From Nodosilinea sp. FACHB-141 (GTDB lineage: Bacteria > Cyanobacteriota > Cyanobacteriia > Phormidesmidales > Phormidesmidaceae), in contig NZ_JACJPP010000022.1 in NCBI RefSeq assembly GCF_014696135.1, positions 124,001 through 188,000 of the forward strand: a stretch of DNA of 64,000 nt, given 5' to 3'. The notes beneath the pieces are model-generated. The model searched no databases. It was not told the DNA's origin and was given only the letters and a program-made list of their open reading frames with translations. Position numbers and translations under genes: made by a program. Shown here piece after piece: positions 5,680-28,710 of the stretch. The number at the start of each line of letters is the position of its first letter. The first letter of the stretch is position 1.

Positions 5680-6920
5680 TGGTTGGTTGGGTTAGGGCAA
5701 GCATAAATACTCGGTTGCTAACAGCAGGTGTGGCAACGGTAGCCTGTCTGGTTGGGCAAAGCGGTGGACTGTTCGCGCTGGCGGCTGAAAGAGGTGAAGC
5801 TCAGGATCTCTTCGTTTCAGATCTTCCCGCTGATGCTCAGCCCTCAGCAGCTCCACCCCTGACGCCATTGATGGGGGATAGGGAGAGCCGTCTATGGGCT
5901 GACCTTGTGCTGCCTGCTGACCGCCAAGCGTTGATACAGGCAATCAACCATAGCTTTACTTACTTAGCTACACCGAAGGCGGCAGCAGATTATCAGGCTT
6001 ATCCAGTACCGGGCATTACGCGCGATCGCGTGTGGCGCAGTCTGCAACGTTTGCGGCAGCTAGTCGCTACCAGCCCCAGCAATCAGGCTTTTCAGATTGC
6101 TCTAAGGCGACAATTTGTTGTTTATGAATCGGTTGGAGCCGATGGCAGGGGCACCGTTGCCTACACGGGCTACTTTGAGCCGCAGTATCGAGCCAGCGCG
6201 GTTCCTACTGCTGAATACCGTTATCCCCTCTACCGTCGCCCTCCTACCCTAGATACTTGGCCTCAGCCTCACCCAACCCGCCTAGAGCTGGAGGGCGTGG
6301 ATGGCTTGGCGGGCGGGCAGGGTGCCCTCGCTGGTTTAGAACTTGTGTGGTTGGCCAATCGCCTGGAGGCGTTTCTGGTACAGGTGCAGGGTTCGGCTAA
6401 GCTGCAACTCACCGATGGTCAGGTGATGTCGGTGGGCTACGCGGGTCGTACTGAATATCCCTACACCAGCATTGGCCGTGCCCTGGTCGACGATGGCAAA
6501 ATCGACCCAAACGATCTGTCACTGCCCAATCTGCTAGCCTACTTCGAAGCTCATCCCGAAGACCTGAACCACTACTTACCTCAAAACGAACGGTTTATCT
6601 TCTTTCGTGAAGGCAGTGATGGGCCACCTTCGGGTAGCTTAAGTGTGCCGGTAACCGCTGGCTACTCGATCGCCACCGATAAATCACTGATGCCACCAGG
6701 GGCGATCGCGGCGATTCAGCTGTCGTTACCTCAACAAACACCTCAGGGCGATTGGGTTAGCCAACCTACTACCCGCTTAGTACTCGACCAAGATACAGGC
6801 GGCGCTATTCAAGGCCCTGGACGAGTCGATTTGTATGTAGGATCGGGTAGCCAAGCTGGGGAGCTAGCTGGACGTATCAACACATCAGGGCGCCTATATT
6901 ACCTGCTGCTACGTCCCTAA
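5679..6920 (+). CDS. mltA: Membrane-bound lytic murein transglycosylase A
   Basis: A 413-residue MltA-family enzyme that cleaves the MurNAc-GlcNAc bond of peptidoglycan with formation of 1,6-anhydro-MurNAc. A hydrophobic signal segment (about 10-32) precedes the MltA domain (GYFEPQYRAS, VWLANRLEAFLVQVQGSA, GRTEYPYTSIG) and a C-terminal 3D domain with RLVLDQDTGGAIQGPGRVDLY, split here by convention but continuous. The conserved Asp in the 3D region is present. Start overlaps the previous stop by one base. It acts in the periplasm, presumably in wall turnover. Confidence 0.93.
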   Translation: MVGWVRASINTRLLTAGVATVACLVGQSGGLFALAAERGEAQDLFVSDLPADAQPSAAPPLTPLMGDRESRLWADLVLPADRQALIQAINHSFTYLATPKAAADYQAYPVPGITRDRVWRSLQRLRQLVATSPSNQAFQIALRRQFVVYESVGADGRGTVAYTGYFEPQYRASAVPTAEYRYPLYRRPPTLDTWPQPHPTRLELEGVDGLAGGQGALAGLELVWLANRLEAFLVQVQGSAKLQLTDGQVMSVGYAGRTEYPYTSIGRALVDDGKIDPNDLSLPNLLAYFEAHPEDLNHYLPQNERFIFFREGSDGPPSGSLSVPVTAGYSIATDKSLMPPGAIAAIQLSLPQQTPQGDWVSQPTTRLVLDQDTGGAIQGPGRVDLYVGSGSQAGELAGRINTSGRLYYLLLRP

Positions 6921-6983
6921 AGGGCGGTGCCTCTAGCGCTGTTCCCTCGAGTTGCCACAGTCCGGGTGTTACCCTATAGGCCT

Positions 6984-8942
6984 ATGGATACTTCCTTTGC
7001 CCTCACCCTACAGATTGTACTCACGGTGCTGGCCGGAGTTACTGCGCAAGTCATCGGGGAGATAGCCAGGGTTCCCAGCATTATTTTTTTGCTGCTCTTT
7101 GGCATTGGCTTGGGTCCGGATGGCTTTGGATTACTCCATCCTCAAGACTTAGGCATTGGGCTAGAGGTAATTGTGGCCCTCAGTGTGGCGCTCATTCTCT
7201 TTGAGGGAGGATTAAGCCTAGAGTTGAGTGAACTAGGTCAGGTGTCGAACAGTCTGCGCAACCTGGTTACTATTGGCATCTTTGTCACGCTGATTGGCGG
7301 CGGTATGGCAGCCCACTGGCTGGGGGAGTTTCCCTGGTCGCTGGCATTTCTTTACGCTTCGCTGATCGTGGTGACTGGCCCTACCGTAATTGGGCCTCTG
7401 CTGCGCCAGGTGGCGGTCGATCGCAAGGTGGCAACCCTGTTAGAGGGTGAAGGCGTGCTGATTGATCCCATTGGGGCCATCCTGGCGGTGGTGGTGCTCG
7501 ATATTATTCTCAATGGAGATGCTGACCCCACTACGGTCGTCAGCGGCTTGATTTTGCGGTTGAGCATTGGCACGCTGATTGGCGTAGTCGGCGGTGGCCT
7601 GATTGGTCTTTTGCTAAAGCAGGCCAGCTTTTTAGGAGAAGATCTGCGCAACCTCGTGGTGCTGGCAGGACTGTGGGGGCTGTTTGGGCTGGCCCAGGGC
7701 ATTCGTAGCGAGGCGGGGCTGATGGCTGCCGTAGTAGCGGGCATGGTGGTGCGCTGGCTGTCGGTGCCCGACGAGCGGCTGCTGCGTCGGTTTAAGGGGC
7801 AGCTGACGGTGCTGGCGGTGTCGGTACTGTTTATTTTACTGGCGGCAGACCTGTCAATTGCCAGTGTGTTTGCCCTAGGCCGAGGAGCGGTCTTGACGGT
7901 GCTAGTGCTGATGGTGGTGGTGCGCCCGGCGAATATCTGGTTGTGTACCCAGTCCAGCGATTTAAACTGGCGCCAAAAGCTATTTTTGGGCTGGGTTGCC
8001 CCTCGCGGCATTGTGTCGGCTTCGGTGGCCTCTCTATTTGCTATTTTGCTGACTGAGCGGGGTATTAGCGGGGGAGAGGCGATCAAGGCCCTGGTGTTTC
8101 TCACCATTATTATGACGGTGATGATGCAGGGGCTCACGGCGCGATTTGTGGCTAGCTGGCTCGGCATTACCAAGGCTGCTGCGGTGGGGGCCGTAATTGT
8201 TGGGTGCAACCCCCTCAGTTTGCTGATAGCTCGTTTAATGAGGGAATACGGCGACCCGGTAGTCATGATTGACACCAATGACGCCGCCTGCGATGCCGCC
8301 GAGAAGGAAGGCATCGAGCTTTTGATTAGCAGCGCCCTCGATCGCGACGTCTTGGAGCGGGCGGGTCTAGATAAAGCAGGCACCTTTTTGGCTATGACCA
8401 AAAACGGCGAAGTCAATGCTGTGGTAGCGCAGCGGGCGCTGGAGGAGTTTCAGCCAGCACGGGTAGTAGCGGTGGTGCCTCAGGAGAAGAGCGGGGGCGA
8501 GCTGCCCAATCAGGGACAGCTAAAGGGGGCACAGACGCCGCGCCTCTCCCTAAAGCAGTGGAATACTTACCTGAACGACGGGGAGGTGCGCCTGGGTGAG
8601 ACCTGGCTGCGGCAGGAGAATAGCGAGCTGCAACAGGCGCACCTGGCTACGCTGGTGTACAACAGTGCCATGGTGCCCCTGCTGGTGGAGCGCGACGATG
8701 CGCTTCGAGTTGCCTTAGGGCAAGACCGATGGGAGGTGGGCGATCGCCTGATCTACCTCTGGCATGACTCCAAGCCCAAACTGCTCAAACGACTTGCGGG
8801 TGGTATTCAGCCCAGTCGGCTCACCCTAGAAACATTGCCTGTGGTGGAGGCCGTGCCCTCAGCGCCAAAGGATTCTCCAGCAGAAACCGCCATAGCAGCA
8901 ACATTGATTTCTGAAGGGCCAGTTGCGTCAGATTCTAGATAA
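6984..8942 (+). CDS. CPA1-type sodium/proton antiporter with TrkA-N-like C-terminal domain
   Basis: A 652-residue membrane protein with about 12 hydrophobic segments over residues 1-410 and a cytosolic tail. The membrane part has FEGGLSLELSEL and LLEGEGVLIDPIGAILAVVV, typical of NhaP-type exchangers with the ion-binding DP pair. The tail starts AAVGAVIVGCNPLSLLIARLM and continues VMIDTNDAACDAAEKEGIEL, a Rossmann TrkA-N-like nucleotide-binding fold, which probably gates transport. I chose ATG 6984 (MDTSFALTL) since the preceding 19 residues from 6927 are not membrane-like. It should exchange Na+ (or K+) for H+ at the plasma membrane. Confidence 0.9.
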   Translation: MDTSFALTLQIVLTVLAGVTAQVIGEIARVPSIIFLLLFGIGLGPDGFGLLHPQDLGIGLEVIVALSVALILFEGGLSLELSELGQVSNSLRNLVTIGIFVTLIGGGMAAHWLGEFPWSLAFLYASLIVVTGPTVIGPLLRQVAVDRKVATLLEGEGVLIDPIGAILAVVVLDIILNGDADPTTVVSGLILRLSIGTLIGVVGGGLIGLLLKQASFLGEDLRNLVVLAGLWGLFGLAQGIRSEAGLMAAVVAGMVVRWLSVPDERLLRRFKGQLTVLAVSVLFILLAADLSIASVFALGRGAVLTVLVLMVVVRPANIWLCTQSSDLNWRQKLFLGWVAPRGIVSASVASLFAILLTERGISGGEAIKALVFLTIIMTVMMQGLTARFVASWLGITKAAAVGAVIVGCNPLSLLIARLMREYGDPVVMIDTNDAACDAAEKEGIELLISSALDRDVLERAGLDKAGTFLAMTKNGEVNAVVAQRALEEFQPARVVAVVPQEKSGGELPNQGQLKGAQTPRLSLKQWNTYLNDGEVRLGETWLRQENSELQQAHLATLVYNSAMVPLLVERDDALRVALGQDRWEVGDRLIYLWHDSKPKLLKRLAGGIQPSRLTLETLPVVEAVPSAPKDSPAETAIAATLISEGPVASDSR

Positions 8943-8990
8943 GCTGAATTTTCCTGACGCTATGGCGCTCCAGTCTTCACCATCGACTTT

Positions 8991-9734
8991 ATGGCTTCCA
9001 ACCCACCTCACGTTTCAGCACTGGGTACGCTCACTGGCATAGGCGTTGGCCCTGGAGACCCCGACTTAATCACGCTCAAAGCGCTCAAATGTCTTCAGTC
9101 AGCCAATGTTGTAGCCTTTCCCCAGGGGCGAAGCGGTCGACCCGGTTTGGCCCAAACAATCATTGCGCCGCACCTGGATCAGCAACAGCTACTGCCGCTC
9201 GATTTTCCCTATATTTTCGACCCAGACCAGCTCACCAGCGCTTGGCAGCAGGCAGGCGATCGCGTTTGGCAGTGTCTCAGCCAAGGCCAAAACGTGGTGT
9301 TTGCCTGTGAAGGCGATCTCAGCTTCTACGGCACCTTCAACTACCTGGCCTTGAGCCTGGAGCGCCGGTACCCAGCAGCACAAATCACTCGCATCCCTGG
9401 CATTTGCTCACCGATGGCAGCGGTCAGCGCCCTCGGGTTGCCGCTCACGGTGCAGTCAGACAAGCTAGTGGTACTACCTGCTCTTTATACCGTGAATGAG
9501 CTGAACGCTATTTTGAACTGGGCTGATGTCGTAGTGCTGCTCAAGGTGGGGTCAGTGTACAACCAGATTTGGCAATTACTACACCAGCGACGTCTCTTGG
9601 AGCACAGCTGGGTCATAGTGAACGCCACTCAGCCTACCCAGATCGTCTATCGCCCCCTGACGACCTACCCCTGTCTAGAGTTGCCGTACTTTTCGCTGAT
9701 GGTCATAAGGTCGGGGGCAAATCCGCTACCCTAG
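8991..9734 (+). CDS. cobI: Precorrin-2 C(20)-methyltransferase
   Basis: SAM-dependent tetrapyrrole methylase that methylates precorrin-2 at C20 in cobalamin synthesis. The N-terminal GIGVGPGDPDLITLKALK (about 16-33) is the family signature. CEGDLSFYGTFNYL (about 104-117) and IPGICSPMAAVSALGLPL (about 133-150) are the expected SAM- and substrate-site stretches. Length 247 is normal for CobI/CbiL. I cannot separate the aerobic CobI from the anaerobic CbiL by sequence reading alone; cyanobacteria are usually annotated with cobI or cbiL interchangeably. No other cob gene is next to it. Confidence 0.92.
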   Translation: MASNPPHVSALGTLTGIGVGPGDPDLITLKALKCLQSANVVAFPQGRSGRPGLAQTIIAPHLDQQQLLPLDFPYIFDPDQLTSAWQQAGDRVWQCLSQGQNVVFACEGDLSFYGTFNYLALSLERRYPAAQITRIPGICSPMAAVSALGLPLTVQSDKLVVLPALYTVNELNAILNWADVVVLLKVGSVYNQIWQLLHQRRLLEHSWVIVNATQPTQIVYRPLTTYPCLELPYFSLMVIRSGANPLP

Positions 9735-23794: not shown

Positions 23795-23914
23795 ATGCTT
23801 CAGAGTGGACGAATTCCGTTGTGGATCGTGGCAACTGTTGCCGGTACTGGTGTGCTGGTGGTGGTGGGTCTATTTTTCTACGGTGCCTACGCTGGTGTAG
23901 GGTCTGCCATGTAG
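23795..23914 (+). CDS. psbJ: Photosystem II protein J
   Basis: A 39-residue one-helix subunit involved in late assembly and plastoquinone exchange near QB. It reads [17 protein letters not shown] and continues through a hydrophobic helix to [19 protein letters not shown] lies a few bases upstream of ATG 23795, a strong ribosome site. It is the last gene of psbEFLJ and is followed by a hairpin terminator at 23940. Confidence 0.97.
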
Positions 23915-23939
23915 CTGCTTCGAGCAGTTCTAGATTTAG

Positions 23940-23983
23940 AGGCTGGGGCGAGTTGGGTTATACCTGCTTGCCCTAGCCTTTTT
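23940..23983 (+). terminator. Intrinsic terminator of psbEFLJ
   Basis: AGGCTGGGGC (23940-23949) pairs with GCCCTAGCCT (23970-23979), including one G-T pair, and TTTTT follows to 23983. It lies 25 bases past the psbJ stop and 8 bases before the end of the convergent nanE gene. Confidence 0.75.
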
Positions 23984-23991
23984 AAGTGGGT

Positions 23992-24687
23992 CTAGGAGAT
24001 AGCTAAGGGGCGATCGAGGGCGCTGACATAGCGCTGCACGAGGTAATCAATACCCGTGATCGCCGTGCCTACGACAACGGCATAGGCACCTAAATCAAGG
24101 GCTTGCTTAGCCTGGGCTGGAGAAGCAATGCCGCCTTCACAGATGACTGGCACGGGGCACTGTTTCACCATAGCTTGGAGTAGGTCAAACCCGGGCGGGG
24201 TTTCGGTTTGAGTCTCTGCGGTATAGCCAAACAGGGTGGTGCCGACGCAGTCTGCCCCGGCGTCAATAGCCTTGAGTGCGTTGTCGAGGGTATCGACATC
24301 GGCCATGACGGCGCGGCCTAGACGCTCGTGAATTTGCTGAATAATTTGCTCTAAGGTTTCACCACTGGGGCGGGGCCGTTGGGTAGCATCAACGGCGATA
24401 ATGTCGCTGCCGGCTTGGGCTACTGCCTCGGCGTGATGAAACTGAGGGGTGATGTAGACCTCCGAGGGCGGCATAACCTGCTTCCAGAGGCCGATAATGG
24501 GGGAATTGCAGCGGGCCCGTACGGCTTGGATGTGGTCAGGGCTGTCGATGCGTACCCCAACGGCTCCGCGGTTAAGGGCAGCTTCGGCCATGGCTGCGAT
24601 CGCCGTCGCATTGTGCAGAGGCGAGTCACCCGGGGCTTGGCACGATACGACGAGCCCGCCCTGCAACGATTCCAAAATGCTCTTCAA
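23992..24687 (-). CDS. nanE: N-acylglucosamine-6-phosphate 2-epimerase (NanE family)
   Basis: A 231-residue TIM-barrel enzyme that interconverts N-acetylmannosamine-6-phosphate and N-acetylglucosamine-6-phosphate. Family stretches are GAVGVRIDSPDHI, PIIGLWKQ, DIIAVDATQRPRP, MADVDTLDNA, GTTLFGYT, and VICEGGIASPAQA near the C-terminus. The start is a TTG at 24687; no in-frame ATG precedes the conserved VVSCQAP. No sialic-acid lyase, kinase or transporter is nearby, so it may supply or salvage amino sugars for the envelope rather than act in sialic-acid breakdown. That is inference. Confidence 0.9.
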   Translation of the reverse strand: MKSILESLQGGLVVSCQAPGDSPLHNATAIAAMAEAALNRGAVGVRIDSPDHIQAVRARCNSPIIGLWKQVMPPSEVYITPQFHHAEAVAQAGSDIIAVDATQRPRPSGETLEQIIQQIHERLGRAVMADVDTLDNALKAIDAGADCVGTTLFGYTAETQTETPPGFDLLQAMVKQCPVPVICEGGIASPAQAKQALDLGAYAVVVGTAITGIDYLVQRYVSALDRPLAIS

Positions 24688-24727
24688 GGTAGGACTTACT
24701 CCACAACAGCGCTATCTAGTTTGATCT

Positions 24728-25225
24728 ATGGCAACTCGGATTTCAAAAACCCTGCTGGTAGCCTCTATTGGTCTGCTGGCCTTGGTAATTGTGCTCAATA
24801 ATCTGACGGACTACAACGCCAATTTTAGGTACATTCAGCACGTGCTGAGCATGGATACGGTCCTTGTAGACAGTCAGCTAACCTGGCGAGCTGTGACCTC
24901 ATTGGGCCTTCAGAAGGCGGCCTATGGGGTGATCATAGGGATTGAGTCGGCGATCGCCGCTCTCTGTCTAGGTGGAGCCATGCGCTTGCTGAAAGTTGTG
25001 AACTGCGATGGCATCACCTTTAACCGGGCTAAGGCTACGGCTATTTATGGGCTGACCCTGGCGTTTCTATTTTGGTTTGTGGGCTTCATGGTGGTAGGTG
25101 GGGAGTGGTTCACCATGTGGCAGTCGTTGGAGTGGAATGGACAGCAGCCCGCCTTTCGCTTTATCGGCTGTGTGGGTTTTGTGCTGCTCTACCTCAGCCT
25201 GCCCGATGGCAACTTGCTTGAGTAG
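24728..25225 (+). CDS. DUF2165 family membrane protein
   Basis: A 165-residue integral membrane protein with four hydrophobic segments (about 7-27, 60-85, 100-122, 142-160). The pattern, including NNLTDYNANFRYIQHVLSMD after helix 1 and the final GFVLLYLSLPDG, matches the predicted small integral membrane proteins of DUF2165. Function is unknown for the family. It is divergent from nanE, 40 bases away, and convergent with dcd. Confidence 0.8.
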   Translation: MATRISKTLLVASIGLLALVIVLNNLTDYNANFRYIQHVLSMDTVLVDSQLTWRAVTSLGLQKAAYGVIIGIESAIAALCLGGAMRLLKVVNCDGITFNRAKATAIYGLTLAFLFWFVGFMVVGGEWFTMWQSLEWNGQQPAFRFIGCVGFVLLYLSLPDGNLLE

Positions 25226-25293
25226 GGTGGCTTGGCTTGAGGATGGGCGATCGCACCCCCTAACCACACTTTTACACCCAGGTGAAGCCTGAT

Positions 25294-25893
25294 CTACACC
25301 TTGGCCAGTGTGACCTGTTCTGCTTGGTCTTGATATTTGCCTTGGCGGGTTTCGTAGCTAACCTGGCAGGGCTCACCCTCAAAGAAAATTAGCTGCACCA
25401 CTCCCTCGCTGGCGTAGATGCGACAGTCGGCGCTAGAGGAATTAGAAAACTCTAGGGTGAGGTGGCCGCGCCACCCCGCTTCAGCTGGGGTCAGATTGGC
25501 AATGATGCCACAGCGGGCGTAGGTCGATTTGCCGATGCAAATCACGCTGATGTTGTTGGGGACAGAAATTTTTTCTAAGGCTACTCCCAGCCCATAGGAG
25601 TGGGCCGGCAAGATAAAGTAGCTGCCGCTCTCATCAGTTTTAAGGGCGGTGGGTTCTAAATTGGCGGGGCTGAAATTTTTGGGATCAACCACCGTACCCG
25701 GAACATGGCGAAAGATTCTAAATTCGGCAGGAGATAGCCGAATGTCGTACCCGTAGGACGACAGCCCGTAGCTGATAACTGGCTGTCCTAGAGAATGGTC
25801 AGCGTTCTCTAGCTGTCGCACCAGGGAGGGCTGAAACGGCTGAATCATGCCCTCCTTAGCCATTTTGTCGATCCAGGCATCGTTCTTAATCAT
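25294..25893 (-). CDS. dcd: dCTP deaminase
   Basis: Deaminates dCTP to dUTP, the precursor of dTTP. The 199-residue protein has the trimeric dUTPase-like fold: VISYGLSSYGYDIRLSP (about 37-53), IGKSTYARCGIIANLTPAEAG with the conserved Ser-Arg pair, and the catalytic Glu within HLTLEFSNSS. The C-terminal GKYQDQ closes the active site. It lies 19 bases downstream of a CobO-like gene on the same strand, so the two are probably co-transcribed. Confidence 0.96.
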   Translation of the reverse strand: MIKNDAWIDKMAKEGMIQPFQPSLVRQLENADHSLGQPVISYGLSSYGYDIRLSPAEFRIFRHVPGTVVDPKNFSPANLEPTALKTDESGSYFILPAHSYGLGVALEKISVPNNISVICIGKSTYARCGIIANLTPAEAGWRGHLTLEFSNSSSADCRIYASEGVVQLIFFEGEPCQVSYETRQGKYQDQAEQVTLAKV

Positions 25894-25912
25894 GGCAAAG
25901 CTTCCTGGACGG

Positions 25913-26467
25913 CTAGGGCAAAAAGTTACGGCGAAATTCGGTTACTTGGTCGGCCACTGTGAGTAGCGGATCTGGCATGTCGGGGCCAGTGAGGATGACA
26001 TCGACTTGAGGAGGGCGCTGCTTGAGAAAGTCTACAACGTCTTGGGTGGGAATCAGACCGTAGTTGACGGTTAGGCTGAGTTCATCGAGCACGATGAGCC
26101 CATAGCGACCTCGGGCTATGACCGCTTTGGTATGAGACCACAAGTCTTGAATGGCCTGCTGCTCACTGGGACTCACTACCGGGTCATGAATACAGCGCGG
26201 CATGTCGGCGCGAATCCAGTCTAGATTTTGGCCAAACTGCATCGGTTGATCAGGCCCCTGGTGAATGCCTCCCTTGAGAAATTGCACGATCAGCACAGCT
26301 TTGCCCTGGTCAGCGATCCGCAGAGCCTGCACCATAACATTGGTGAAAAAGTTGCGGTGTACGGCGGTAAAGACTTGTACGGTGCCCTCTACTGTCTGTA
26401 AGAGCGGATGGCGAACGAGCGAGGCAGGGGACGGCGCTAGGGAAAGAGGTTTGATCTGGGAGACCAT
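25913..26467 (-). CDS. CobO/BtuR-like protein lacking the P-loop
   Basis: A 184-residue relative of cob(I)yrinic acid a,c-diamide adenosyltransferase (CobO/BtuR). It keeps the fold markers VLIVQFLKGG (about 58-67), Walker B-like LIVLDELSLTVNYG (about 124-137) and the C-terminal RPPQVDVILTG and ADQVTEFRR. The normal ATP loop TGNGKGKTT is replaced by FTAVHRNFFT (residues 33-42), with no Gly-Lys-Ser/Thr. ATP binding of the normal kind is therefore unlikely. I believe similar P-loop-less versions occur in other cyanobacteria, but I cannot verify this here. It lies upstream of dcd on the same strand. Confidence 0.75.
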   Translation of the reverse strand: MVSQIKPLSLAPSPASLVRHPLLQTVEGTVQVFTAVHRNFFTNVMVQALRIADQGKAVLIVQFLKGGIHQGPDQPMQFGQNLDWIRADMPRCIHDPVVSPSEQQAIQDLWSHTKAVIARGRYGLIVLDELSLTVNYGLIPTQDVVDFLKQRPPQVDVILTGPDMPDPLLTVADQVTEFRRNFLP

Positions 26468-26770
26468 GGGCTAGTCCATCGAGGGCAGAAGAACGGCAGT
26501 TATCCGTTGACCACACCAAAGCCGGCAGCAGCGTAGTGCTACGTTTCTAGGTTGGGTAGCTTGGATTGTAGGGCTAAATATAGCGTGATTCCCCCAACGT
26601 GAATCGACGAATTACTCTATATGCATTCATGAAGTGCTTATGTACTGTATTTAGCTCTAATGGCTTAGCCCGATCAACTATCCTTTGGAACCTGCGCTCG
26701 AGGAGGCGGAAAAGCTGCCTAGTCTAAGGGAGTCTGCTGTATTCTATGGAGGGCATTAGGGGCACCTTGT
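26468..26770. other. Intergenic region upstream of rph
   Basis: About 300 bases between the divergent CobO-like gene and rph. It should hold both promoters. A TATGGAGGGCATTAGGGG stretch (about 26747-26764) may include the rph ribosome site. No RNA fold or repeat was recognised. Confidence 0.4.
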
Positions 26771-27487
26771 ATGGCTTGGCAACGTCCAGATGGTCGGCAA
26801 CCTCACCAGCTGCGGCCAGTAAGTTTTGAACGCCAATTTACGAAATTTTCGGCAGGCTCTGTACTAACCCGCTGCGGCAATACCCAGGTGCTCTGCACCG
26901 TGTCTGTAGAAGAGGGGGTGCCGCGATTTTTGCAGGGGTCGGGTCGGGGCTGGCTAACGGCTGAGTACCGCATGTTGCCAGGGGCTACCCCCCAGCGGCA
27001 GGCTCGTGAGCTCATGAAGCTATCGGGTCGCACCCAGGAGATTCAGCGTCTGATTGGGCGTAGTCTGCGATCGACTCTTGATTTTGAGCTGCTGGGGGAA
27101 CGCACTCTCCTGGTAGACGCCGACGTGCTCCAGGCCGATGCGGGCACCCGCACCGCATCGATTACAGGGGGCTATGTGGCCCTAGCCGATGCGGTGCAAG
27201 GCTTAGTGGCGCAGGGATTGTTGACGCGATCGCCCCTAGTGCACGGAGTTGCCGCTGTCTCCGTTGGCCTCATTGGAGATGATGTCTTGCTCGATTTGCA
27301 GTACGACGAAGACGTGGCGGCAGCCGTAGACTTCAATCTGGTGCTTAACGAGGAGCTCAACATTATTGAAGTTCAGGGTACGGCCGAAGAGGGTAGCTTT
27401 AGCCGTCAGCAGATGAACCAGATTCTAGAGGTGGGTGAGCTGGGCATTAAACAGCTCTTAGAGGCTCAGCAGGCGGCGTTGCTGTAG
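26771..27487 (+). CDS. rph: Ribonuclease PH
   Basis: Phosphate-dependent 3'-5' exoribonuclease that trims tRNA 3' ends. The 238-residue protein begins [16 protein letters not shown] and has the phosphate-site [20 protein letters not shown] region, split by normal family spacing, then [20 protein letters not shown] and the C-terminal [12 protein letters not shown]. Length is normal. ATG 26771 is supported by similarity beginning at residue 1. A G-T-containing 10-bp stem-loop lies 33 bases after the stop. Confidence 0.97.
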
Positions 27488-27519
27488 GTACATCGCTTGA
27501 GAGGATGGCTGTTCTATCC

Positions 27520-27551
27520 AGCGCTGCCCTGCTAGAACTGGGGGCAGTGCT
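27520..27551 (+). other. Stem-loop after rph without T tract
   Basis: AGCGCTGCCC (27520-27529) pairs with GGGCAGTGCT (27542-27551), with one G-T pair, around a 12-base loop. No run of T follows, so it may protect the rph message 3' end or be incidental. Confidence 0.4.
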
Positions 27552-27727
27552 CGGAGTTGCGTCGGAGTTGCGATCGCTAGAGGGCACTTCTTTCCTAGAA
27601 CGAGAGAGTAAAACCAATTCCTATCGTTAAGAAACGCATCAAGACTATCAGCTGAATTTTGCCCTTGGGCAGTCTGAAATTAGGCCACAGTCTGGAATCG
27701 TAGTTTTCTCGCGCAGGAAGGTTTGCC

Positions 27728-28495
27728 ATGACATCTATAGATGCGTTTTCGATGAAAGAAATCACGGTGAGCCGGCAGTCTCCGGGAGAAGAGCGCCAGG
27801 CAGCCCTACACCAAATTTATGCTCAGGTGCTCGAACGCCAGCCCTATGGGTTTGAACGTAAGCAGCTCGCCAAAATCGAAGCGGAGTTCTTGCGAAATAA
27901 AATTGGTGTCAAGCGGTTTCTGCGCGAGCTGGGCCATTCTGAGGTCTATCTCAATGAGTTTTACTACAATTCTTCTAACCCAAAATTTATTGAGCTGTGC
28001 TTCAAGCACTTCATCGGCCGTGCCCCCAGCGATTCGGCAGAAATGCATCGCTACTGCGATATTCTGATGCGGCAGGGCGTTAAAGCCATGATTACTGCTC
28101 TGCTCGACTCTGACGATTACAGTAAGCACTTTGGCTGCTTTACTGTGCCTCACGCCTGGGCCGAGGACAGCTACCCATCTCCAAGAACGTTCTGGGAAAC
28201 TGAAGTGCTGCTGCATGAGCTGCACGGTCGACGCGGCTGGATTGTGCCTACAATGACCTGGCACGACCTTCAGCTCAACTGCGACGGCGGCAGCTGTAGT
28301 TTGCCTGGGGCACCAATACAATCTAGCCATTCCCTGCGGACAGCGGCAGCGGCTACAGTAGCCATATCGGGAGCAGAGGCGCTGCACCAGGTGCTGAGTA
28401 CGATGGGACCTCAGGATTTGGAAGTGTTTGCCGCGACCCTCTCTATCACTGAGCGCGACAAGCTGCGCCACTTGCTGATGCAGCCCGCCCGATAG
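27728..28495 (+). CDS. Phycobilisome linker domain protein
   Basis: A 255-residue protein with one PBS linker domain (about 20-150): QIYAQVLERQPYGFERKQL, FLRELGHSEVYLNEFYYNSSNPKF, ELCFKHFIGRAPSDSAEM and MITALLDSDDYSKHFG are typical of rod-core linkers and the repeat domains of ApcE. The remaining C-terminal 100 residues are not membrane-spanning, so it is not a CpcL type, and do not match CpcG as I know it. No phycobiliprotein genes are adjacent. It may be a minor linker or a regulator derived from one. AGGAAGG precedes ATG 27728. Confidence 0.8.
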   Translation: MTSIDAFSMKEITVSRQSPGEERQAALHQIYAQVLERQPYGFERKQLAKIEAEFLRNKIGVKRFLRELGHSEVYLNEFYYNSSNPKFIELCFKHFIGRAPSDSAEMHRYCDILMRQGVKAMITALLDSDDYSKHFGCFTVPHAWAEDSYPSPRTFWETEVLLHELHGRRGWIVPTMTWHDLQLNCDGGSCSLPGAPIQSSHSLRTAAAATVAISGAEALHQVLSTMGPQDLEVFAATLSITERDKLRHLLMQPAR

Positions 28496-28618
28496 GTCAT
28501 CGCGCTTAGAGCATTCAGCAGCATGTTCCACGGTGGCGGACTCGAACTGAACTGGGCTCGGACTCGTCACGGGCCATTTAGTACTTGAGCAAGCCAATTG
28601 TGACTAGCTCTAACGGCT

Positions 28619-28678
28619 TAGGGTTCAAGGTGTAGATAGACAGTAGGCCTTGAACCCTAGACCTTAAACCCTGAACCC
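28619..28678. repeat. Dispersed inverted-repeat element, copy A
   Basis: TAGGGTTCAAGG (28619-28630) and CCTTGAACCCTA (28648-28659) form a perfect 12-bp inverted repeat with a 17-base loop. It is followed by a further heptad-like run of AAACCCTGAACCCTA to 28674. A related element lies at 53624-53690. It sits between the convergent linker gene and tyrS and may also act as a transcription end. Confidence 0.7.
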
Positions 28679-28710
28679 TACTAGCCCGTTAACTTTGGCT
28701 TCGCAGACTA

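Follow-up and report, generated by a model that had tools for sequence, protein, structure and literature searches.

The window, that is, the whole stretch of 64,000 nucleotides of Nodosilinea sp. FACHB-141 DNA that was analysed, carries on its minus strand a gene for a CobO/BtuR-type protein in which the ATP-binding Walker A loop has been replaced; the features of the locus are collected in Table 1. Translation of the window gave an intact open reading frame from ATG to stop codon, and the bases of the loop translate to FTAVHRNFFT, both as the preliminary description had it. The position directly upstream of dcd on the same strand, reported there as well, was also borne out. In the region 24000–28700 of the window no riboswitch was found above the Rfam thresholds, and Rfam returned only tRNAs around two NrdJ genes, the genome's own canonical CobO, its own tandem CobO and two further tandem genes.

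Table 1. Features of the locus (positions in the window; all on the minus strand except rph).
Feature	Position	Strand	Remarks
NanE-like N-acetylmannosamine-6-phosphate epimerase	23992..24687	−	beyond dcd
dcd, dCTP deaminase	25294..25893	−	PF22769, 86 bits; directly downstream, 19-bp gap
PRK07414 / NF005648 gene	25913..26467	−	184 aa; putative pseudo-adenosyltransferase of CobO/BtuR fold; basis: ORF, NF005648, PF02572, AlphaFold model
TGP (TGR in canonical and tandem CobO)	25982..25990	−	residues 160–162
Walker-B-like LDE, kept	26081..26089	−	residues 127–129; Glu in 142/142, Asp in 141/142 homologues
QFLKGG motif, kept	26267..26284	−	residues 62–67; pattern in 141/142 homologues
Replaced Walker A loop FTAVHRNFFT	26342..26371	−	codons 33–42; CobA equivalent FTGNGKGKTT
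rph (RNase PH)	26771..27487	+	PF01138 / PF03725; divergent, upstream; outside the proposed function

The family of the protein was assessed with profile scores. It passed Pfam PF02572 (CobA_CobO_BtuR) with 94.5 bits against a gathering cut-off of 25.7, as one Pfam stretch, which together with the LDE triplet upholds the earlier assignment to the CobO family with a preserved Walker B-like segment. It likewise passed NCBIfam NF005648 (PRK07414, ‘P-loop NTPase family protein’; 260 bits, cut-off 248). The equivalog cut-off of TIGR00708 for cobA/CobO was missed (84.7 against 167.75 bits), as was that of the tandem CobO, NF005647 (PRK07413; 57.9 against 426 bits), the window protein having a single CobO domain. 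Judged by these scores, the FTAVHRNFFT protein is a member of the NF005648 subfamily, which is catalogued in cyanobacteria, and we refer to it below as PRK07414. The changed role to which the preliminary description pointed stood up (see below), with the correction that the protein is not peculiar to this genome and belongs to a catalogued cyanobacterial subfamily. The protein is 98% identical to one of Nodosilinea sp. WJT8-NPBG4, and the same genome also encodes a canonical CobO with the loop TGNGKGKTT and a tandem CobO (PRK07413) of 376 aa. A tandem CobO-CobO with two intact loops was seen at G000:C19:50128-51252 (locus L002). In a tree of 51 domains, canonical CobO, the N- and C-terminal tandem domains and PRK07414 each formed one group (support 97–99); the order of the groups was left unread because the tool warns of long branches.

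Conservation was followed in 142 homologues, taken from two sets of genome contigs (60 and 80 sequences, near-duplicates between the sets being retained) and from two viral contigs. The column of the Walker lysine was occupied by F (110), S (28), L (2), M (1) or T (1) and never by K, and the column after it by F in 125 and Y in 14 sequences. An arginine two columns before the lysine position was present in 138 of the 142, the exceptions being L080 and L081, together with L201 (matched in pieces) and L263 (partial), for which the loop alignment is unreliable. GK[ST] elsewhere in the chain was found in two homologues, L187 and L189. Thus, no Gly-Lys-Thr loop is restored at the Walker position in any homologue, nor is the gene lost in close relatives, which carry the same replaced loop; since they share it, the loop cannot be put down to a sequencing error or to a mutation private to this genome. 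These two explanations, as well as a second start and a pseudogene, were ruled out by the intact reading frame, the family-wide loop and the low dN/dS given below.

Walker A, TGR, GFTW (on the corrinoid face) and the C-terminal marks serve the binding of ATP and corrinoid in CobA. With canonical CobO/BtuR/CobA (TIGR00708; PDB 1g64 and 4hut) PRK07414 shares the fold, LDE, TG and a QF-KG-like strand, but the Walker A loop, TGR, GFTW and the C-terminal GI[ED] are missing. TGR was present in none of the 142 homologues and in 12/12 canonical, 10/10 tandem N-terminal and 10/10 tandem C-terminal domains, and it separates PRK07414 from all 32 control CobO domains. GFTW was absent from all 142 homologues and from the 20 tandem domains, and present in 12/12 canonical CobO proteins; the C-terminal GI[ED][FYW] was likewise found in no homologue and in 11/12 canonical proteins, the N-terminal tandem domain also being without it. 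Because the tandem domains do without GFTW, and the N-terminal one without the C-terminal motif, the loss of these two motifs alone does not prove inactivity. TG and the LDE pattern were kept in 142/142 homologues. The 32 control domains were chosen for having a P-loop and offer no independent control for the loop itself; the alignment with Salmonella CobA (4hut/1g5r), spanning residues 24–179 of the window protein, is one. The tandem CobO resembles PRK07414 in being a cyanobacterial CobO paralogue tied to NrdJ (see below), and differs from it by its two domains; in the ten tandem proteins examined, each domain keeps an intact GKGKS loop. NF005648 is named a P-loop NTPase family, yet no examined member has a P-loop, and counting its members as adenosyltransferases of B12 biosynthesis in surveys is doubtful for that reason.

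On the strength of these sequence comparisons, PRK07414 has most probably ceased to be an adenosyltransferase. A continuing activity as an adenosyltransferase or NTP-dependent enzyme on another corrinoid, with a non-canonical site around the conserved arginine, would come closest to the 2018 proposal of different btuR substrates made in the btuR section of PMC5816740, and would agree with the retention of LDE, TG and QFxKG and of the loop arginine in 138 homologues; with the Walker lysine, TGR and the C-terminal motif lost in all 142 sequences, we consider this quite improbable.

An AlphaFold model of PRK07414 had a mean pLDDT of 92.2, and its top structural matches in Foldseek were CobA entries (E 8e-11, TM 0.66–0.68). 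VIA-align gave Z 19.0 with 4hut_A (169 residues aligned, rmsd 7.4), Z 18.7 with 1g64_A (153 aligned, rmsd 3.1) and Z 18.5 with 1g5r (154 aligned, rmsd 3.1); the next fold family, that of the type II thymidine kinases, followed at Z 12.1 (117 aligned, rmsd 2.5). According to the model, PRK07414 would be a well-folded protein with the CobA fold. The dN/dS ratio was 0.025–0.062 in nine of ten comparisons with close relatives, dS being infinite in the tenth; dS was below 1 in only three comparisons (dN/dS 0.025, 0.037 and 0.062), and the remaining ratios are rough because dS exceeded 1 in six of the nine. PRK07414 is under purifying selection. The loss of the catalytic motifs could in principle mark a decaying duplicate without a function of its own; against this stand the dN/dS values, the conservation of the altered loop, the correlation with NrdJ described below and the spread across the class, and we give decay practically no credence. 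A changed role rather than decay, as proposed in the preliminary description, is further supported by the CobA fold of the model and by the canonical CobO elsewhere in the genome.

The gene neighbourhood was compared across the 142 loci. In 108 loci dcd immediately followed in the same orientation, the two frames lying within 400 bp of each other; in 4 it lay farther downstream, and in 30 it was not within the examined locus. A match to rph was found in 97 loci, and the 80 listed ones were all upstream on the opposite strand. The conserved neighbour of PRK07414 is dcd, not nrdJ. The order PRK07414-dcd-thyX (thyX being Pfam Thy1) occurred in 13 loci of genomes of 1.6–1.9 Mb (Prochlorococcus size) and on both viral contigs; in some picocyanobacterial loci the frames of PRK07414 and dcd touch. 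PRK07414 thus often stands among genes of dTMP synthesis, as dcd follows it and in some loci thyX follows dcd. The two viral contigs (L262 and L263, from IMG/VR) are short contigs filed as viral that hold a PRK07414 relative with dcd and thyX, either as host fragments or as true viral copies; L262 matches query residues 25–179 and L263 residues 94–179. The arrangement with dcd and thyX, as well as the type II thymidine kinases as next-nearest fold, would suit a nucleotide-sensing regulator or partner of Dcd, in which the altered loop binds nucleotide in some other way and the tie to NrdJ is an indirect one via the dNTP pathway. The occurrence of the genes across genomes speaks against it, as shown in the following.

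The hand-made list comprised 139 genomes of the class, 97 with PRK07414 and 42 without; other genes were looked for in every genome of the 42 and in 38 of the 97 that were selected by hand, and of the 59 other genomes with PRK07414 only G125 and G167 were tested for NrdJ, in a later set of 27 genomes. PRK07414 was called present at a best E-value below 1e-30, counted by hand from tables, which makes the call in G463 (2.0e-33) doubtful. Among the 80 chosen genomes, NrdJ (TIGR02505), the class II ribonucleotide reductase that depends on adenosylcobalamin (AdoCbl), was found in 38/38 with PRK07414 (G085 being counted from fragments below the cut-off) and in 4/42 without it (G054, G121, G284 and G203), whereas class I NrdB (PF00268) showed the reverse distribution, with 0/38 and 38/42. 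The tandem CobO (NF005647) was over its cut-off in 37/38 and 4/42, respectively. For dcd of the window type the numbers were 29/38 and 22/42, diverged dcd genes possibly being missed because the search used a single protein query. A CobO-type match was present in 33 of the 38 genomes that lack NrdJ and in none of the other 5, all 38 being without PRK07414.

A larger draw comprised 388 genomes; NrdB exceeded its cut-off in 30 of the 49 that lack PRK07414 and in 6 of the 339 that carry it (G125, G167, G297, G421, G448 and G495). NrdJ also scored above its cut-off in four of these six, among them G125 and G167, which belong to the same genus. G297 has a NrdJ fragment of 336.9 bits, just below the cut-off of 340.05, and in G448 (87% complete) PRK07414 and NrdB were found but no NrdJ over the cut-off. 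As most genomes with both PRK07414 and NrdB keep NrdJ, the presence of PRK07414 is tied more closely to NrdJ than to a simple lack of NrdB, G448 being the counter-case. In G463 (87% complete, with the doubtful PRK07414 call) NrdJ was not found. At its cut-off NrdB is missing from 352 of the 388 genomes, and NrdJ therefore probably makes the DNA precursors in most members of the class.

Correlated evolution was assessed with a Pagel-type test (our own implementation) of dependent versus independent evolution, with a simulated null, on a tree built from the rpoC1 genes of 79 genomes. It was chosen because the independent pairs, although in agreement, were too small in number for a sign test to reach 0.05: starred branches gave 4 pairs, with no discordant one among them, and the median p was 0.125, which is not significant. 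PRK07414 and NrdJ gave a likelihood ratio (LR) of 29.4 (p 6.5e-6), which was reached in 0 of 150 null simulations (highest 13.2); the test depends on a single gene tree, obtained for rpoC1 by quick search, and the fit used a flat root prior; the null began with both genes present and was fitted from single starts. The evolution of PRK07414 is also correlated with that of the tandem CobO (LR 25.6 on the same 79 genomes). For the tandem CobO and NrdJ the LR was 33.7, a tie no weaker than the one between PRK07414 and NrdJ. On a larger tree of 104 genomes, 89 of which have a known NrdJ state, PRK07414 and NrdJ gave LR 34.6 (p 5.6e-7), with several fitted rates running to extremes. That tree added, besides G051, 10 of the 27 further-tested genomes; 15 genomes with PRK07414 entered it with NrdJ state unknown, G297 was counted as having NrdJ from its 336.9-bit fragment, and f55, guessed to be Gloeobacter-like, served as outgroup. 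It leaves out G448, G456, G463, G468, G473 and the 11 genomes with NrdJ and without PRK07414 listed below; G131, which has no rpoC1, is absent from both trees. PRK07414 occurred in none of the 40 genomes on the larger tree that lack NrdJ.

For PRK07414 and dcd the same test on 79 genomes showed no co-evolution (LR 0.9, p 0.93). dcd as a functional partner, expected from the adjacency, is supported neither by this value nor by the presence counts, in which 9 of 38 genomes with PRK07414 lack dcd of the window type and 22 of 42 without PRK07414 keep it; with dcd also outside the examined locus in 30 of the 142 loci, we regard a regulator or partner of Dcd as unlikely. As to the dcd neighbourhood, whose conservation the preliminary description had raised, dcd is a frequent neighbour; the gene whose presence goes with that of PRK07414 is NrdJ.

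NrdJ without PRK07414 was seen in 7 of the 49 NrdJ-containing genomes of the larger tree, namely the four named above, G335 and both f55 genomes, G352 and G360. Eleven further genomes have NrdJ and no PRK07414 (G314, G331, G455, G462, G471, G483, G492, G514, G518, G524 and G533); since all of these are drafts of 68–97% completeness, some of the absences may be gaps. Given such genomes, NrdJ can do without PRK07414, at least in some of them. G203 (f11 g15) has both NrdJ and NrdB and no PRK07414, and its tandem CobO is present only as a fragment at a contig end; this is perhaps a lineage caught while switching reductase.

Overall, both the tandem CobO and PRK07414 go when NrdJ goes and a CobO-type match mostly stays, and the simplest reading is that the two serve NrdJ's AdoCbl. 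We consider it likely that PRK07414 belongs to the NrdJ/AdoCbl pathway, a confidence that was lowered by G448, G463 and the further genomes that have NrdJ and lack PRK07414. Canonical CobO is required for de novo corrin synthesis. In the scheme that we propose, canonical CobO would serve corrin biosynthesis; the tandem CobO, with its loops intact, would make or remake AdoCbl for NrdJ, the cofactor in cyanobacteria usually being pseudo-AdoCbl; and PRK07414, without the loop, would hold, hand over or sense AdoCbl, probably together with the tandem CobO. PRK07414 would then be a non-catalytic, corrinoid-binding accessory of the AdoCbl supply to NrdJ, a reading to which, with the mechanism as worded here, we assign a probability of about one half. 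The hand-over or sensing step and the binding of corrinoid are what we infer; the binding itself is no more than putative, the GFTW of canonical CobO being lost as well.

Alternatively, PRK07414 could be the non-catalytic half of a hetero-oligomer with the canonical or the tandem CobO, tuning their adenosyltransferase activity and not handling the cofactor of NrdJ. Both candidate partners are encoded in the same genome, and the co-evolution with the tandem CobO (LR 25.6) would fit, but in the tandem two domains, each with its loop intact, are already fused to one another, and the canonical CobO probably does not need PRK07414, since 33 of the 38 genomes without NrdJ and PRK07414 retain a CobO-type match. 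We find such a complex about as improbable as a partnership with Dcd.

The accessory role in AdoCbl supply to NrdJ may be made more specific. The AdoCbl cofactor of NrdJ is sensitive to light and oxygen. PRK07414 might be a dedicated AdoCbl chaperone, or a reactivator, of the class II reductase, which in cells that evolve oxygen would act with the tandem CobO to load (pseudo-)AdoCbl onto NrdJ or to renew it there; this version is put forward tentatively, at somewhat less than even odds. A chaperone of AdoCbl should occur with its client, and all 38 chosen genomes with PRK07414 have NrdJ, the exception in the larger draw being the incomplete G448. To our knowledge, an accessory of such a kind is known for no class II reductase, and none was found in our search of the literature. 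For the delivery, retention or renewal of AdoCbl on a class II reductase, the present data offer two concrete genes whose presence and absence parallel those of NrdJ: a putative pseudo-adenosyltransferase and a fused double adenosyltransferase.

Human ATR (MMAB) is of a different adenosyltransferase family, unrelated to CobO and PRK07414. According to PMC8633584, it not only synthesises AdoCbl but also delivers it to the client enzyme, and an adenosyltransferase that escorts AdoCbl is a precedent for the proposed role. It differs from PRK07414 in being catalytically active and in having methylmalonyl-CoA mutase as client. The NrdJ of the window genome carries a P-S-G-R loop, which is assigned to triphosphate reducers in the relevant part of PMC8365446, and its product would therefore be dCTP, the substrate of the neighbouring Dcd.

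Outside the cells, the cyanophage P-SS2 (GQ334450) encodes a class II reductase (6853-9423), a tandem cobO (23802-24836) and dcd (98065-98655); the first two are both tabulated in the gene list of PMC2784084. The best match to PRK07414 in this phage is its tandem cobO, and the phage supports the pairing of class II reductase and CobO from outside.

Three btuR-type genes were described in 2018 for Trichodesmium and other cyanobacteria: a canonical one, one with a single domain and 178 aa whose clade is wholly cyanobacterial, and a tandem one (btuR section of PMC5816740). Two of the three copies were placed in cyanobacterial clades, and the copies were proposed there to adenosylate different compounds. 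PRK07414 is very probably one of these three copies, as far as the btuR section describes them, and Tery_2088 would, from its length and clade, be the PRK07414 protein of the set. That section makes no mention of a lost loop or of a link to dcd or NrdJ. The name ‘PRK07414’ was found in the main text of no paper in the mostly open-access literature searched, and no paper tying a cellular CobO paralogue to NrdJ was found in the same kind of search. The family NF005648 and, from the btuR section of PMC5816740, the three cyanobacterial btuR copies were thus already known; that the P-loop is missing throughout the family, and that the gene is linked to NrdJ and not to dcd, was not found in the literature searched and is apparently new.

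Some observations on the reductase genes may be added. G051 (f7 g17; one contig of 3.76 Mb, listed as 99% complete) showed no NrdJ, NrdB or PF02867 match and no PRK07414, and keeps the tandem CobO; its genus-mate G233 has NrdJ. The missing PF02867 match says little, because seven genomes with NrdJ also lack one, and in G051 the reductase gene may have been masked or split, or the enzyme may be of a different type. NrdJ was present in the genomes of Prochlorococcus size G107, G114, G137 and G165. Many NrdJ matches were split inside one long frame (1073–1857 aa), near profile positions ∼280 and 378–387, a pattern as inteins would give.
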